DNA of 53,232 nucleotides from a virus, in IMG/VR virus record IMGVR_UViG_3300044615_001001, positions 1 to 53,232 of that record; one strand, given 5' to 3'. A program made the position numbers and the translations under genes. The notes beneath the pieces were generated by a model, which saw nothing but the letters and a program-made list of their open reading frames with translations, did not search any database and was not told where the DNA came from. Numbering within the stretch: the first letter of the stretch is position 1; every line of letters starts with the position of its first letter. Below are positions 2,999 to 52,651 of this stretch, piece after piece.

Positions 2999-3237
2999 GC
3001 GTCCACCCGTCCTCTCGTGCTCTCCACGAGCACGCTCTCCGCAGCCCTCGCGTACACGCGCACCACCGCCGAGCCTGACGCGTCAGCGAGCGCGTGCAGT
3101 CCACTCGCCGCCTCACCAAGCGCGGCCTCTCGCTCGAGGAGGGCGAACGCGACGTCAGACTCGCGCCCAGCCTGACGCGCGTGACGAGCAGCGCGCCAGA
3201 GATGGATGATCGCGTCGAGCGTGCGGCGAGCGTTCAT
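2995..3237 (-). CDS. Small hypothetical protein
   Basis: An 80-residue helical protein starting MNARRTLDAIIHLWRAARHA. The ATG overlaps the upstream TGA as ATGA; the frame is open further upstream but only this start is coupled. Function unknown. Confidence 0.6.
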   Translation of the reverse strand: MNARRTLDAIIHLWRAARHARQAGRESDVAFALLEREAALGEAASGLHALADASGSAVVRVYARAAESVLVESTRGRVDA

Positions 3238-3506
3238 GCGCGCCTGGTCTGCGTGATAGTCATCGCCATGAAGTGCGCGCGCGGCCTGACGACCTCTCGC
3301 AGCCTGTCGACAATCTCGTGTCGACCGTCGTTGCCCAGCGGAAGCGCCGTGGTGCACAGAAGCACATCGTCTTCCGGCTCGCTGTAGACGAACGTTGCGA
3401 ACATCGGCACGTCATACTCCTTCGCGAGCCTGATAATCTCTGTCATCAGCGGAGCGATGTGCTTGTCGTACGCCATCTCCCGCGGACCTCGGTTGTCACT
3501 GTCCAT
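3234..3506 (-). CDS. Small hypothetical protein after terminase
   Basis: A 90-residue protein with mixed alpha/beta character (MTEIIRLAKEYDVPMFATFV, then a charged loop and DDVLLCTTAL). It starts at an ATG that shares one base with the terminase stop (TGATG). It resembles small proteins often seen beside phage terminases, but no function is known to me. Confidence 0.65.
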   Translation of the reverse strand: MDSDNRGPREMAYDKHIAPLMTEIIRLAKEYDVPMFATFVYSEPEDDVLLCTTALPLGNDGRHEIVDRLREVVRPRAHFMAMTITQTRRA

Positions 3507-4981
3507 CACAGCCACCCTCCTCTCGATGCCGGCGCACGACCGGCAGGTCGTCCCACGTTGCCTGGCGTCAGCACGCCCTCGCTCAGCGCCTTGTGCGCTG
3601 TCACCGTCGCGTCGATCTCGTCGTCCACCTCGGCACTCGACATGCCCGAGAAGTCCAGCGCACGCGACACGTAGCCGCTCACATCCCACGTCGCCGACGC
3701 AGGCACGAGCACGCGCCCGTGATTCCAATCAGCCTCGAGCGCACGAGCGTTCACCAGCTTGTCGCCCTTCGTTGGCTCGTGGCGAACGCTCAGCCCCATC
3801 GAGCGCGCCGTCTCGAGGAGCGCGGCCTCCTGTCCGCCCGTGCGCATGTAGACCTGAGCGCCGAGGTAGCGCATCTGTAGAGCGCGCATCTCCGCGCACC
3901 ACTCCGAGAACGAGCAGCGACGGCGCAGCACCTCGAGCACGAAGAAGCGCGGCGGCTGTCCTGGCTCGGCGTCGAGCTCACGCGCGAGAACGACAGCGAC
4001 CGACCAGTCCGCCGTGGTGCGCGTGGAGTACGCGAGGTCCATACCAATCGCGCACGCGTAGCGGCCGGGCCGCACGTCGTACGTGTGCACGCCTCGCAGC
4101 AGCTTGCCTTCACGTGGACGCGGCGAGCCCATGTAGAGCGCCCACCAGTCGTGCTCCGTGACGAGCAACCTCTGAGCCTCGTAGAACGCGCGGTCGCGGC
4201 CGCCGAACGTAATCAGCGGCTCGCCCGTGTTCACGTCCACGCTCGGAATGTTGATCTCGAGCACATCGACGCCAGCGGCGCGCAACGGCTCAAGCTTGAC
4301 CGCCATCTGCGCAATCAGGTCTGTTGATGTCCAGCGCGTGTGCTCGATGACCACACTCGTTTCGGGGTGGCGACGAGACATCACCGCGGAACTGACCTGC
4401 GACACGATGCGTGATGACACGGCATCGCTCTCGGCCTCCACCTGGTTCTTGTACGGGTCGCAGATCCACACCGCCTTGAGCCCGCTCTGGCCCGTGAGGC
4501 CGCCGTCTCGACCACGTGCGAGCATCCCTCCGCCGCGCGTCGTGTACCACGAGTCAACGGCCTTTGAGTCGCCGCGGAGCTCAACGTTCGCGGCCTTCAC
4601 GATGTCGCGGATCTCGCGGGACTTCTCGTTCGCCAGATCCTGTCCGTACGTCACCAGACCGATTCGATGGTCCGGCCGGCGAGTGATGTGGCGCGCGCAT
4701 GCGTACTGGCCGAGCATCGTCTTTCCGATCTGCGGCGGTGCCGACACGAGCGCGATGACCGGCGCGGCCTCACCGCATGACGCGCGAAACACGCGGTCCC
4801 ACGCGTCAGCGATGGGCGACAGATCGTCGCGCCTCTGGCACGCTGGCCCGAACACCATCCGGCCCATGCGCAACTGGTAGTCGAGCACCGAGTCAGCCCG
4901 CGCAAGACGCAACTCGGCCGCGTGGATGCTCGCTTGAAGCTCCTCGATGGCCCGCGCTGCCTCTGCTGCGGTGAGTGTCAC
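3506..4981 (-). CDS. terL: Terminase large subunit
   Basis: A 491-residue DNA-packaging motor and nuclease that pumps the genome into the prohead and cuts concatemers. Residues 80-88 (SAPPQIGKT) form the Walker A motif. LKAVWICDP (169-177) fits Walker B, and EHTRWTSTD (213-221) looks like the coupling segment. The C-terminal RNase H-like nuclease begins GMDLAYSTRTTADWSVAVV, with metal-binding Asp at 315 and 325. The start is a GTG lying directly after the upstream TGA. The small subunit is one gene upstream, with a single small gene between them. Headful versus cos packaging cannot be decided from this sequence. Confidence 0.9.
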   Translation of the reverse strand: MTLTAAEAARAIEELQASIHAAELRLARADSVLDYQLRMGRMVFGPACQRRDDLSPIADAWDRVFRASCGEAAPVIALVSAPPQIGKTMLGQYACARHITRRPDHRIGLVTYGQDLANEKSREIRDIVKAANVELRGDSKAVDSWYTTRGGGMLARGRDGGLTGQSGLKAVWICDPYKNQVEAESDAVSSRIVSQVSSAVMSRRHPETSVVIEHTRWTSTDLIAQMAVKLEPLRAAGVDVLEINIPSVDVNTGEPLITFGGRDRAFYEAQRLLVTEHDWWALYMGSPRPREGKLLRGVHTYDVRPGRYACAIGMDLAYSTRTTADWSVAVVLARELDAEPGQPPRFFVLEVLRRRCSFSEWCAEMRALQMRYLGAQVYMRTGGQEAALLETARSMGLSVRHEPTKGDKLVNARALEADWNHGRVLVPASATWDVSGYVSRALDFSGMSSAEVDDEIDATVTAHKALSEGVLTPGNVGRPAGRAPASRGGWL

Positions 4982-49363: not shown

Positions 49364-49378
49364 GTGCACCTCAAGCGA

Positions 49379-49451
49379 TTGCGGAGACGGGAATTGCACC
49401 CGTGCGTGGCCGGCTTATGAGGCCGGTGCGTTGCTACTTCGCCACTCCGCG
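49379..49451 (-). tRNA. tRNA-Met(CAT), initiator-like
   Basis: Folds into a cloverleaf on the minus strand. The acceptor CGCGGAG pairs with CTCCGC, leaving C1 opposite A72, the mismatch that marks bacterial initiator tRNAs. The anticodon arm is CCGGC-CTCATAA-GCCGG, with two of the three G-C pairs typical of initiators. The T-arm is ACGGG-TGCAATT-CCCGT. The D-loop is short and lacks GG, which is odd. CCA is not encoded. It lies between MuF and protease genes. Elongator Met or Ile(CAT) cannot be fully excluded. Confidence 0.8.
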
Positions 49452-49502
49452 ATAGGCCGCCGAGATTACGGATGCGCGAGCGCAGAGCCGTCGGCGGGCT
49501 TG

Positions 49503-51176
49503 TCAGTCAGCGAGCGGGCCGGGAGCGGACTCCCAGCCAGCATCCGGCGTCACGCCAGCGATGCGGCCCTCGGTGAGCATGTAGCCGCGCGCCTCGAACT
49601 GCCTCGCGCTGATCGTGGTCAGCGAGCAACGACAGTTGCTCGTGATGATTCCGTTCGCCCCTATCCAGCTGAAAGGCGACTGGAGGTCGAACACATGTCC
49701 AGAGAACGAATGGCGCTTGACGCTGACTACCTTGTCCGTGCCTACGAGGCCGGAGCCTCTGAGAAGAAGCTCGCTGACGAACTTGGCGTCTCGCGCAGTG
49801 CCATCAGGCGCAGACTGGTCGCGCGCAACGTGAAGCCGCGAGGCCGCTCCGAAGCGGAGCTGCTGAAGTGGTCCGCCATCAAGCGAGACAGAGCCCTCGT
49901 CGAGCGCCAGTGCGGCAGAGCGTGGAATGCCGCGAGGGGTCGAGTCCACACGCTTGAGGAGCGCGTCGCCAGAGCTGCCAGCGGCGGACGCCTCATCGGC
50001 AAGCACGAGGACACAATCGCCGGTCTGCTCGACGCCGCTGGCTGTGCCGTGGAGCGCCAGTTTGCCTGGGGCCCCTACAACATCGATCTGGCCGCGCATG
50101 AAGCGCGCGTCGCCATCGAAGTCGTTGGGACTCCACCCGTCCACGCTGGCCGAGATAGAGTCCGCGAACGCACCGAATACCTGCTCAATGGCGGCTGGTG
50201 CGTGCTCTTTGTCTACGTTGGTCCACTGTGGGGTCGCCGCACCGTTGAGATCGACGGTGCGTTCGTAACAAACGAGATCGTCTCCCTCGTGGAGAGAGCC
50301 CGCCGCAACGAACCCGTTCACGGTTGCTATCGGGTGATTCGGGGTGACGGGGAGCCGACGGCCATGCTCCGTAAGTACCTCAACAATCTCCCCGTCGTAC
50401 CAAGCGCGGTAGGCGCCGTCGAAGGTGCCCTCAACGACAACGCCTGACGGGAAGCATCGGAAGCCGAGCGGGGGCGCGTAGTACGCGGCCTCGTCGGTGC
50501 CCTGCCGGAACACGCGGCCGTGAAGCGCGCGGTGCATCGGCCGGACGGCCTCGTCGCCAGCGGTCACGTAGCGAAGGAAGGGGCGCAGCGCGGCGACGTC
50601 GGGATCGTTGACGGCCTGCCATCGGCCAGCGCCGTACGACGTCGCGACGTTCGTTCGCACGACGGTCTCGAGGTAGTGCGGACTCGCGGGCGCGATGCCC
50701 ATCGCTCGCACCTCGTCACGCTCCGCAGCGCGGATCGCCTCGTACACCTCGTCGGTGGTGAGGTCTTGCTCGAGAAGCCGCGCGATGCTTGTGCGTGCCA
50801 CTTCGCGCAGACGCTCTGTCGCGAGACGCCGCGCCACGAAGCCACCTTCACGGTAGCGGTCACGCAGCGCGTCGAACTCCTCTTCGGAGATCAGCCGCTT
50901 CGCGCGGAAGAACGCAACCGCGTCGTCGAACGGCATCGCCAAGAACGGCGACTCACGGCGCGAGGTGACGGCGCGTGCTGCGCTGTCGCTGTCCTCTGCG
51001 AGCTCGACCTCACGCACCATCAACTGGCCGCCGAGCGCCGCTTGAAACGACGTGCGGTAGAGCAGGCCCGCGAGCCTGTCGTCGGTCTGGAGCTGGTCGG
51101 CCCAGCGGGCCACCACCTCGTCGATGTCACTCGGACCACGCAGCGAGCGCGCGTGCGCCGCGAGCAGGTCGAGCAT
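49503..51176 (-). CDS. MuF-like head morphogenesis protein interrupted by an intein
   Basis: From the ATG at 51176 the frame gives 557 residues: a 240-residue N-extein, a 274-residue intein and a 43-residue C-extein. The N-extein has the MuF signature PFDDAVAFFRAKRLISEEEF and TVVRTNVATSYGAGRWQAVN. Spliced, the exteins give PPLGFR-CRCSLTTISARQF, the conserved C-terminal CxC motif of MuF proteins. MuF is a minor head protein involved in head assembly and injection. No ribosome-binding site precedes this ATG, and residues before it resemble a portal C-terminus, so a frameshift from the portal gene may be the true origin. Confidence 0.75.
   Translation of the reverse strand: MLDLLAAHARSLRGPSDIDEVVARWADQLQTDDRLAGLLYRTSFQAALGGQLMVREVELAEDSDSAARAVTSRRESPFLAMPFDDAVAFFRAKRLISEEEFDALRDRYREGGFVARRLATERLREVARTSIARLLEQDLTTDEVYEAIRAAERDEVRAMGIAPASPHYLETVVRTNVATSYGAGRWQAVNDPDVAALRPFLRYVTAGDEAVRPMHRALHGRVFRQGTDEAAYYAPPLGFRCFPSGVVVEGTFDGAYRAWYDGEIVEVLTEHGRRLPVTPNHPIATVNGFVAAGSLHEGDDLVCYERTVDLNGAATPQWTNVDKEHAPAAIEQVFGAFADSISASVDGWSPNDFDGDARFMRGQIDVVGAPGKLALHGTASGVEQTGDCVLVLADEASAAGSSGDALLKRVDSTPRGIPRSAALALDEGSVSLDGGPLQQLRFGAASRLHVARDQSAPDGTARDAKFVSELLLRGSGLVGTDKVVSVKRHSFSGHVFDLQSPFSWIGANGIITSNCRCSLTTISARQFEARGYMLTEGRIAGVTPDAGWESAPGPLAD
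49635..50456 (-). mobile_element. Intein in MuF (274 residues)
   Basis: The N-terminal splicing domain starts CFPSGVVVEGTFDGAYRAWY, with Cys 1, and has block B LPVTPNHPIATVNGFVAAGS followed by LHEGDDLVCYE. The C-terminal domain is VVSVKRHSFSGHVFDLQSPF then SWIGANGIITSN, followed by Cys +1. The penultimate residue is Ser, not the usual His, which may slow Asn cyclisation. The middle (about 150 residues) contains no LAGLIDADG or HNH motif; NDFDGDARF and QQLRFGAASRLHVARDQ look conserved-like. The nuclease appears to be encoded on the opposite strand. Confidence 0.9.
49695..50447 (+). CDS. Putative homing endonuclease antisense to the intein
   Basis: A 250-residue frame on the strand opposite the intein, wholly inside it. 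The ATG follows GGAGG by eight bases. Residues 8-50 form a helix-turn-helix (LVRAYEAGASEKKLADELGV, SRSAIRRRLVARNVKPRG). Residues 100-175 fit a PD-(D/E)XK/Vsr-like nuclease: GKHEDTIAGLLDAAGCAVER (Glu 105), WGPYNIDLAAHEARVAIEVV (Asp 131, Glu 142), GTPPVHAG, then RTEYLLNGGWCVLFVYV. This is the pattern of Vsr-like or EDxHD-type homing nucleases. Codons lie exactly opposite intein codons, second base to second base. Confidence 0.8.
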   Translation: MSRERMALDADYLVRAYEAGASEKKLADELGVSRSAIRRRLVARNVKPRGRSEAELLKWSAIKRDRALVERQCGRAWNAARGRVHTLEERVARAASGGRLIGKHEDTIAGLLDAAGCAVERQFAWGPYNIDLAAHEARVAIEVVGTPPVHAGRDRVRERTEYLLNGGWCVLFVYVGPLWGRRTVEIDGAFVTNEIVSLVERARRNEPVHGCYRVIRGDGEPTAMLRKYLNNLPVVPSAVGAVEGALNDNA

Positions 51177-51217
51177 CGAGCGGCCGAGAGACGCGCTCTC
51201 GAGGAGCGCCTCAGCGG

Positions 51218-52651
51218 CTAGTGCGCCCGGTCGTCCGACGACTGCCTGAGCAGTCGCGCGAGCGGATGCGTCGAGGTCTGCGACGTCGCCCCACTCGGCG
51301 TCATCGCGGCCCTCGGAAAAGGGACCTCCGCAGACGCACCCCCCGGCGCGCTTGTGGAGGCTGGGAGGGAAAGAGGCGACCCGCTGTACGCGGGCGGAAG
51401 CTGTGGCGCGGCGAACGCGTCGCCGCCGTCGATCGCGTCGTAGCCGTTCGACGTGCGGAGCTCGTTCTTCGTGCAGAGACCGGCCTGGTACTCCGCGACG
51501 CTCCACGGGCGCTGCGCCTGCACTGCCGTCTCGATGACTGGCACGACGGCGCCGGGGCGATTGAAACGCACGAGCGGCGCGAGCCACTGATCGCAGATCG
51601 TCTCGTCGAGCTCGGTGAGGTCGGCCGCGAGGATGTCGCCGCGCACCTGCGCTTGCGCCTGGCTGCCGTACGTCTGCGCGTCCTTGACCTCGATGCTGAG
51701 GTTGCCGCCGAGTAGCGAGACCGCGTACTCCGTGTTGCAGTAGTCCGCGAACAGCTTGTGCAGTTCGGGGTAGAGCGAGACGGGGATCTCGTTGATCTCG
51801 ACGCCCGTGCGGAACGCCGCGCGCCACGTCGAGGACAACTGCCCAAGCTGGTCAACCACCTCGTCAAGCATCGTCGTGGACGTGCTCGGGTCGTTGACCA
51901 CGCCGTACAGCTGCGGCTGGCCGTACCGCTCGATCATCTCGAGCCACCAGCGCAGCCCGAACCGCTTCGCGAGCGCGAGCGCGAGGAGCGGACGCAGCGC
52001 GCCGCGCTTCTGGAGACGTAGATGCACGCCGCCCGTTGGGCTGTGCACGATGAACTTGTGCGGCCACGAGGACAGCGGCTTGCCGTGGCACTCCGCGCCA
52101 GGCTCGTACACGCACAACTCGCCGTACTCATCGACGGAGAGGCGCGTGGGATCGATGGGGCGCGGACGCGAGACGACCCACCCGCGCGAATCGAGCTGCC
52201 AGTCGTGCTCGAGGACGCCGACGCCGCGGAGGATGCCCTGCGCAAGCTCGGCGCGACGACGCGCGAAGCCAGGCGTCTCGTAGAGGATCGTCGAGACCGA
52301 CTGCGCCGTTGCGAGCGCGTCGCGGTCCTGCTCGTAGCCGACCGGTGGGCGCACTGCCCAGCGCCTCGACGTGATCGCGTGAATGCGCGCAGCGGACACG
52401 CCACGAAGGCGCGAGTCACGCACGAGCGCGCCCTCGTAGATGGCCTGTAGCGGCGAGATCGTGCCGACGTCAGCGGAGCGCAGTGCGCTCACGAGCTGCT
52501 GGCCAGCGTTGACCTCGTACTCCATCGGATCGCTGACCTGCCGCGACGTGCGAGGCACGCCGTACACGCGACCGACGGGAGCGCCGCCGCTGAGCGTCAG
52601 CGGGGCGGCTGCCGCGCGCTTGCTCCACGGGAGCCAGTCGGTCCACGCCAT
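51218..52651 (-). CDS. Portal protein (DUF935, Mu gp29-like)
   Basis: A 477-residue head portal subunit through which DNA enters and leaves. It fits the Mu gp29/DUF935 family: RDSRLRGVSAARIHAITSRR, GVGVLEHDWQLDSRGWVVSR, RPIDPTRLSVDEYGELCVYE, KRFGLRWWLEMIERYGQPQL and TYGSQAQAQVRGDILAADLT. The last 39 residues (after Gly 438) do not resemble the family, whereas the -1 frame from that point (CVCGGPFSEGRDDAEWGDVA and on) does. GGAGG precedes the ATG by four bases. Confidence 0.88.
   Translation of the reverse strand: MAWTDWLPWSKRAAAAPLTLSGGAPVGRVYGVPRTSRQVSDPMEYEVNAGQQLVSALRSADVGTISPLQAIYEGALVRDSRLRGVSAARIHAITSRRWAVRPPVGYEQDRDALATAQSVSTILYETPGFARRRAELAQGILRGVGVLEHDWQLDSRGWVVSRPRPIDPTRLSVDEYGELCVYEPGAECHGKPLSSWPHKFIVHSPTGGVHLRLQKRGALRPLLALALAKRFGLRWWLEMIERYGQPQLYGVVNDPSTSTTMLDEVVDQLGQLSSTWRAAFRTGVEINEIPVSLYPELHKLFADYCNTEYAVSLLGGNLSIEVKDAQTYGSQAQAQVRGDILAADLTELDETICDQWLAPLVRFNRPGAVVPVIETAVQAQRPWSVAEYQAGLCTKNELRTSNGYDAIDGGDAFAAPQLPPAYSGSPLSLPASTSAPGGASAEVPFPRAAMTPSGATSQTSTHPLARLLRQSSDDRAH
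51338..51344 (-). promoter_or_regulatory. Candidate -1 frameshift heptamer GGGGGGT in the portal gene
   Basis: In the portal frame the codons read CCG-GGG-GGT, so the heptamer is G-GGG-GGT, which permits canonical tandem slippage to GGG-GGG. A -1 slip leads directly into CVCGG..., the frame of the following MuF gene. The same homopolymer could instead be the site of an indel or assembly error. Confidence 0.5.

Follow-up and report, generated by a model that had tools for sequence, protein, structure and literature searches.

Can one segment of phage DNA encode a protein-splicing element on one strand and, on the other, the homing nuclease that would make it mobile? The question is raised by an insert in a head morphogenesis gene of a viral genome fragment (IMG/VR virus record IMGVR_UViG_3300044615_001001, positions 1 to 53,232; GC 66%), the whole of which, 53,232 nucleotides, is referred to here as the window. 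The gene carrying the insert is MuF-like and has a Mu-type portal gene on one side and a Mu-like protease gene on the other. A tRNA-Met gene (anticodon cat, 49377-49452, minus strand) is located just downstream of it, i.e. upstream of the nuclease on the nuclease strand. Our answer, held with high confidence, is that the insert is a mobile phage intein with its homing endonuclease encoded on the opposite DNA strand, although splicing, transcription of the nuclease strand, cleavage and copying by repair are all inferred. The minus-strand features are:

49503-51218, minus strand (start approximate): MuF-like head morphogenesis gene, host of the intein (Phage_Mu_F 9.3e-11, phageSPP1_gp7 6.2e-12)
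49635-50456, minus strand: MuF intein, 274 codons, class-1-like, with Cys1 at 50454-50456 and the terminal Asn at 49635-49637 (from translation, HINT fold and Pfam)
50253-50456, minus strand: N-terminal splicing domain of the intein, blocks A and B, with TPNHP at 50331-50345; constrained in both frames
50058-50210, minus strand: intein subdomain IExVF...DFDGD...IDVV, residues about 83-133 (pLDDT 70-92)
49794-50066, minus strand: disordered intein linker, residues 131-221 (pLDDT about 40)
49635-49775, minus strand: C-terminal splicing domain of the intein, blocks F and G

The Pfam Phage_Mu_F match corresponds to the extein part of the gene. The insert is in frame with it, reading CFPSGVVV...TPNHP...GHVFDL...ITSN from 50456 to 49635 and followed by Cys+1. 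A sequence-only reading of this DNA had recognised blocks A, B, F and G here together with Cys 1, a C-terminal Asn and Cys +1, and they are indeed present (block B as TPNHP, block F as GHVFDL, block G as SN). Pfam Intein_splicing matched the window intein at 5.1e-05 and 71 of 73 family members, and the model of the window intein has a HINT fold (Mtu RecA intein, VIA Z 12.5, rmsd 1.5, 105 aligned). Across the inteins of the family, Cys1, the block B His, the terminal Asn and Cys+1 hardly vary. By its blocks and its predicted fold, then, the MuF insert is an intein, splicing itself being an inference. Besides the HINT domain, the AlphaFold model contains a confident subdomain with a DFHGD motif (DFDGD in the window, at 50109-50123, where it faces the nuclease catalytic strand), followed by the disordered linker; this small subdomain and the linker make up the in-frame middle of the intein, which holds no nuclease.

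The nuclease is found on the other strand:

49695-50447, plus strand: gene of the antisense nuclease, running from ATG to TGA (250 aa), its codons in exact register with those of the intein (149 unique proteins in the family; AF2 pLDDT 87.7; purifying selection in the family)
49704-49844, plus strand: helix-turn-helix domain of the nuclease, residues 4-50 (structural matches to Tn3 resolvase, Mos1 and DeoR-type HTH; Pfam HTH_7, HTH_23 and others)
49992-50315, plus strand: Vsr/DUF559/I-Bth0305I-like nuclease domain, residues 100-207 (structure comparison, profile search, Pfam)
50007-50009, 50085-50087 and 50118-50120, plus strand: conserved nuclease residues E105, D131 and E142

This gene leaves uncovered 60 bases of the intein at one end and 9 at the other. 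The sequence-only reading had given the same limits for both genes, with codons facing each other in exact register and a helix-turn-helix domain in the opposite-strand product, and retranslation, structural comparison and Pfam bore all of this out. The predicted structure consists of the N-terminal helix-turn-helix and a catalytic domain, and resembles Vsr (1cw0; VIA Z 10.6, rmsd 3.0, 115 aligned), the Neisseria endonuclease-like protein 3hrl (VIA Z 10.3) and the homing endonuclease I-Bth0305I (3r3p; VIA Z 10.2, rmsd 2.8, 94 aligned). Foldseek by itself gave no E-value below 0.001 for this model; profile searches with the nuclease reached 3hrl at E 1.1e-6 and 3r3p at E 6.7e-5. Pfam MTES_1575 was matched in 47 of 76 nuclease family members, and HTH_7, HTH_23 and other HTH profiles in up to 40 of the 76. 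Among the 149 unique proteins D131 is present in all, E142 in 147, E105 in 146 and R159 in 142, and the profile alignment with I-Bth0305I pairs both E105 and E142 with Glu residues. There was no conserved His at the one nuclease column examined, and the EDxHD residue set has not been shown to be complete. On the strength of its predicted structure and these profile matches, the plus-strand product has a Vsr/I-Bth0305I-like nuclease fold; that it cleaves DNA is inferred.

To find relatives we searched phage genomes by tblastn with the plus-strand protein. At E 1e-5 this gave 45 annotated records, from phages of Gordonia, Pseudomonas, Mycobacterium, Escherichia, Cronobacter, Haemophilus, Aggregatibacter, Vibrio and Rhodococcus, and relaxing the cut-off raised the number to 91, with Salmonella now among the hosts. 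At all 17 phage loci inspected (GC 0.41 to 0.68) the match lies antisense within an uninterrupted host CDS and keeps the same register, with at least about 240 codons open antisense to that CDS. About 190 further loci came from scans of viral contigs. An intein N-terminal domain was detected nearby on the opposite strand at 205 of 208 loci matching the nuclease, in the same register in all 205 and over a GC range of 0.36-0.70; both splicing domains could be identified at 199, joined in one open frame in 198. The exceptions comprise contig ends, a single weak match (L211) and two loci with a nuclease broken by TAG (L161 and L162). In bacterial genomes, which are independent samples, all full-length matches but one lay antisense, in register 0, to an intein. 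The window's own nuclease has no close relative outside its lineage, the best identity there being about 38%. None of the phage records examined has the nuclease annotated. In Salmonella phage vB_StyS-sam a hypothetical protein, ORF43, is annotated antisense (L019:2694-3095, plus strand) in a frame other than that of the nuclease, and the true antisense gene has therefore likely gone unannotated.

Presence at one exact site in some genomes and absence from it in close relatives is what is expected of a homing endonuclease, and the family meets this criterion. For the jerseyvirus MuF gene, the intein-bearing query is covered to 80% or more by 58 of 349 matching phage records, and the jerseyvirus relatives examined are without exactly 816 bp (an empty site); in the same way, relatives of E. 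coli phage KMB36 are without exactly its 894 bp. The Gordonia phages Angelicage and Kewpiedoll have exteins that are 99-100% identical and, at the same site, inteins that are only 34.7% identical. Two loci represent decay: at L162:2779-3759, as at L161, the TAG breaks the nuclease while the 327-codon intein frame on the opposite strand stays intact, and by its sequence L162 is a decayed nuclease within a working-looking intein. The element resides in four unrelated host genes, coding for MuF, RtcB, dCMP deaminase and uracil-DNA glycosylase (UDG); L116 has it within the RtcB gene, and L117 within the uracil-DNA glycosylase gene, with Thr at +1. The gene at 616-1968 of Virus Rctr197k (L016, KX853510.1), annotated as 'putative head morphogenesis protein', is a dCMP deaminase with an intein of this family, a misannotation that probably stems from similarity to MuF inteins. 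Taken together, the empty sites, intein replacement, nuclease decay and four unrelated host genes indicate mobility, as far as this can be read from genome comparison.

One nuclease is not within an intein. In a Thermoleophilia bin (L219) a free-standing nuclease gene (3001-3696, plus strand) converges with an intein-free MuF gene (3680-4726, minus strand). Its reverse frame has two stops, as would be expected where no intein needs that frame. We considered this gene as a free-standing origin of the family, but it nests among the intein-borne nucleases as sister to L062 (in a tree of 118 columns with modest support), which speaks against an origin; from this position it is probably a later escape from an intein.

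That both proteins are real does not in itself make the nuclease a homing enzyme. It might serve mainly some other role, such as antisense control of MuF, given that its transcript would necessarily be complementary to the MuF mRNA, or attack on rival phages, since such nucleases are able to keep out a phage's competitors. We regard this as unlikely for the main function: the presence and absence of the element, its exact empty sites, the replacement of inteins and the decay of the nuclease fit a homing cycle, although an added role is not excluded.

The more basic doubt is whether the antisense frame is a gene at all. Inteins in a GC-rich genome could be accompanied by an opposite frame that is merely an open, conserved-looking shadow, and the window by itself lends this some support. 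In the register used, antisense frames are easily open at high GC, and from local codon usage the probability that the intein frame of the window would be open given the nuclease is about 0.34 (log10 -0.47), and that of the nuclease frame given the intein about 0.22 (log10 -0.66). With a GC of 66%, its double-open frame is thus no more than chance would provide, and the significance of the arrangement has to rest on the relatives. Over the middle region of 107 non-redundant inteins, one would expect, again from local codon usage, about 422 intein-frame and 607 nuclease-frame stops, against 0 observed; the 33 representatives below 50% GC alone would account for 248 intein-frame and 382 nuclease-frame stops. 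Chance openness at high GC, which suffices for the window, was rejected on these grounds for the family, and the effect persists down to 36% GC.

The uniform register also finds an explanation. In that register the only codons that create antisense stops are TTA, CTA and TCA, each replaceable by a synonymous Leu or Ser codon, and any nuclease sequence is therefore compatible with an open intein frame. Synonymous choice alone could fully open the reverse frame of all 107 nucleases in the register used, but of only 30/107 and 34/107 in the other two antisense registers. That it alone lets all of these nucleases keep an open reverse frame is a simple reason for a single register to be found.

Open frames do not measure selection. 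Given that the codons pair one to one, each substitution could be scored in both frames, and this was done for 20 disjoint pairs of relatives and not for the window's own pair, which is without a close relative outside the lineage. The nuclease-frame ratio (NN/SN) was 1.09 and 1.20 in the two flanking exteins, which serve as a nuclease-free control, and fell within the insert to 0.59 in the N-terminal part, 0.40 in the middle and 0.45 in the C-terminal part. The intein-frame ratio (NN/NS) was 0.34, 0.81 and 0.56 in the same three parts, the last within the overlap with the nuclease, and 0.13 in the C-terminal domain before the nuclease start. In the middle the fastest-evolving position was nuclease codon position 3, in all 20 pairs; in the exteins it was position 3 of MuF. 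A caveat concerns the splicing domains: in the approximately 20 intein codons that precede the nuclease start the nuclease-frame ratio is also below 1 (0.52, 0.30-0.82), so ratios within strongly conserved intein blocks are partly biased, and the argument rests on the middle. As judged from these substitutions, the nuclease frame is under purifying selection across the insert.

On the codon-position and paired-frame tests, with their extein controls, we rejected the nuclease as a shadow of the intein. An intein standing alone has to contend with a middle more constrained in the nuclease frame than in the intein frame, a fast position that flips between insert and exteins, and an antisense protein that is confidently predicted to fold as a nuclease and that profile searches match to nucleases of solved structure. 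The position test largely refutes it, within the limits of a comparison of relatives, and we give it very little credence.

Finer bins along the middle divide it in two. The intein ratio is 0.53-0.74 over about the first 80 codons, which take in the DFHGD subdomain, and about 1.0 over the next 80 (bins 4-7), and these roughly 80 codons lacking intein-level selection agree with the region that AlphaFold predicts as a disordered linker. The same substitution data show the intein frame to be selected in the splicing domains and the DFHGD subdomain, the linker being intein-neutral beyond staying free of stops. Whether the DFHGD motif merely reflects the catalytic strand of the nuclease is not settled: the ratio in the motif itself is 0.59 (0.30-1.04), next to the lower range of the subdomain and its confident structure. 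The converse reading, that the nuclease alone is real and sits antisense in MuF as a large, tolerated, unspliced insertion kept open, can point to the linker and to ShiLan, a tolerated in-frame insertion that hides an HNH nuclease and is without a splicing domain (PMC11855218), but it is scarcely tenable in the face of the HINT fold, the near-invariant splicing residues and the strong intein-level selection on the splicing domains (0.13-0.56).

The sequence-only reading would have failed had the homologues lost the opposite frame or its catalytic residues, had the predicted product lacked a nuclease fold, or had the plus frame been free of selection, and none of these came about. Its inference that one stretch is selected for two proteins has to be narrowed, holding for the splicing domains and the DFHGD subdomain and not for the linker codons.

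The overlap extends to the start signals of the nuclease, both of which are written by intein codons:

49682-49686, plus strand: Shine-Dalgarno of the nuclease (GGAGG), complementary to the Asp-Leu-Gln codons of block F
49695-49697, plus strand: ATG start of the nuclease, complementary to CAT, the codon for His254 in block F

These are the GGAGG, eight bases ahead of the ATG, and the start codon that had been proposed from the letters alone. A strong Shine-Dalgarno precedes the nuclease in 56 of 84 representatives. The block F His occurs in 71 of the 84 representatives with a recognisable block F, and the complement of its codon is ATG in 60 of these, where local His usage would lead one to expect 30.8 +/- 4.0, and GTG in the remaining 11. 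Likewise the block F Leu is encoded by CTC, which writes the GAG of the Shine-Dalgarno, in 61 of 81 cases against an expected 17.9 +/- 3.5. The biased His and Leu codons show that codon choice in the splicing domain has been bent to start a gene on the opposite strand. We also searched for a sigma-70-like promoter near the nuclease and did not find one.

A homing cycle may be proposed from these data. The MuF mRNA would be translated through the insert, from which the HINT domain would splice itself out, restoring MuF. A putative transcript of the opposite strand would be translated from the ATG and Shine-Dalgarno complementary to block F, giving the helix-turn-helix and nuclease protein, which would then cut an intein-free MuF site and have the element copied in by repair; this last step is inferred from the fold, from the invariant residues and from how the empty sites are distributed. 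We may speculate that, as the antisense transcript is complementary to MuF mRNA, expression of the nuclease and of MuF could be separated in time. There are no RNA, protein, cleavage or splicing data, and in the absence of a recognised sigma-70-like promoter the transcription of the nuclease is unexplained.

On balance we lean towards seeing here a widespread and undescribed class of selfish element, in which a splicing protein and a homing nuclease occupy the two strands of one segment, the intein codons are selected to spell the ribosome binding site and start of the nuclease, and the unit moves among genes for MuF, RtcB, a deaminase and a glycosylase. Over about 750 bases the two strands code for folded proteins unrelated to each other, and the pair is conserved across more than 100 diverse phages. 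This makes it a rare natural data set on the limits of double coding on opposite strands and on the reason for the use of a single register. Inteins would also have here a new means of carrying a nuclease that places no burden on the splicing protein, and this bears on the interconversion of mini-inteins and nuclease-bearing inteins. As the nuclease is unannotated in the phage records examined, inteins listed as nuclease-free may have one encoded on the opposite strand.

Among published cases the ShiLan domain comes nearest. It is a selfish insertion in phage DNA methylase genes that is open in the host frame, with a homing nuclease concealed in a different frame (Arsenault, Gosselin and Gogarten 2025, PMC11855218). 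There the HNH nuclease is on the same strand, out of frame, and no splicing domain was detected (PMC11855218), whereas the MuF element has its nuclease on the opposite strand together with a full splicing domain, and so does not qualify as ShiLan-type. That paper cites a preprint by the same authors on actinobacteriophage inteins, with mention of a 'non-canonical architecture' and overlapping reading frames (PMC11855218). An antisense nuclease within an intein was not found in the literature searched, although the 2025 actinobacteriophage intein preprint could anticipate part of the arrangement. This preprint, by Gosselin, Arsenault and Gogarten, is said to survey the inteins of PhagesDB actinobacteriophages and probably covers the Gordonia phages with antisense-nuclease inteins. 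The component parts are thus of known kinds; the novelty of the antisense arrangement is uncertain and priority remains open.

With canonical bifunctional inteins (PI-SceI, PI-PfuI, Mtu RecA) the MuF element shares the HINT fold, blocks A, B, F and G, insertion at conserved residues and a nuclease between the splicing blocks. In those inteins, however, the nuclease shares strand, reading frame and polypeptide with the splicing domain, and is usually of the LAGLIDADG or HNH type; here it is a separate protein from the opposite strand, and the element does not meet the definition of a bifunctional intein. With I-Bth0305I and the EDxHD, Vsr-like homing nucleases the likeness lies in the fold (Z 10.2-10.6), a conserved E...D...E core and the union of helix-turn-helix and nuclease in one small protein. 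Nucleases of this type were reportedly described by Dassa and colleagues in 2009 between the halves of split inteins, and we know of none that overlaps a splicing domain on the other strand. Their genes occur in introns, free-standing or between split halves, whereas the MuF nuclease overlaps its splicing domain from the opposite strand and is in sequence nearer to DUF559/MTES_1575 than to the I-Bth0305I/Vsr-like homing nucleases.
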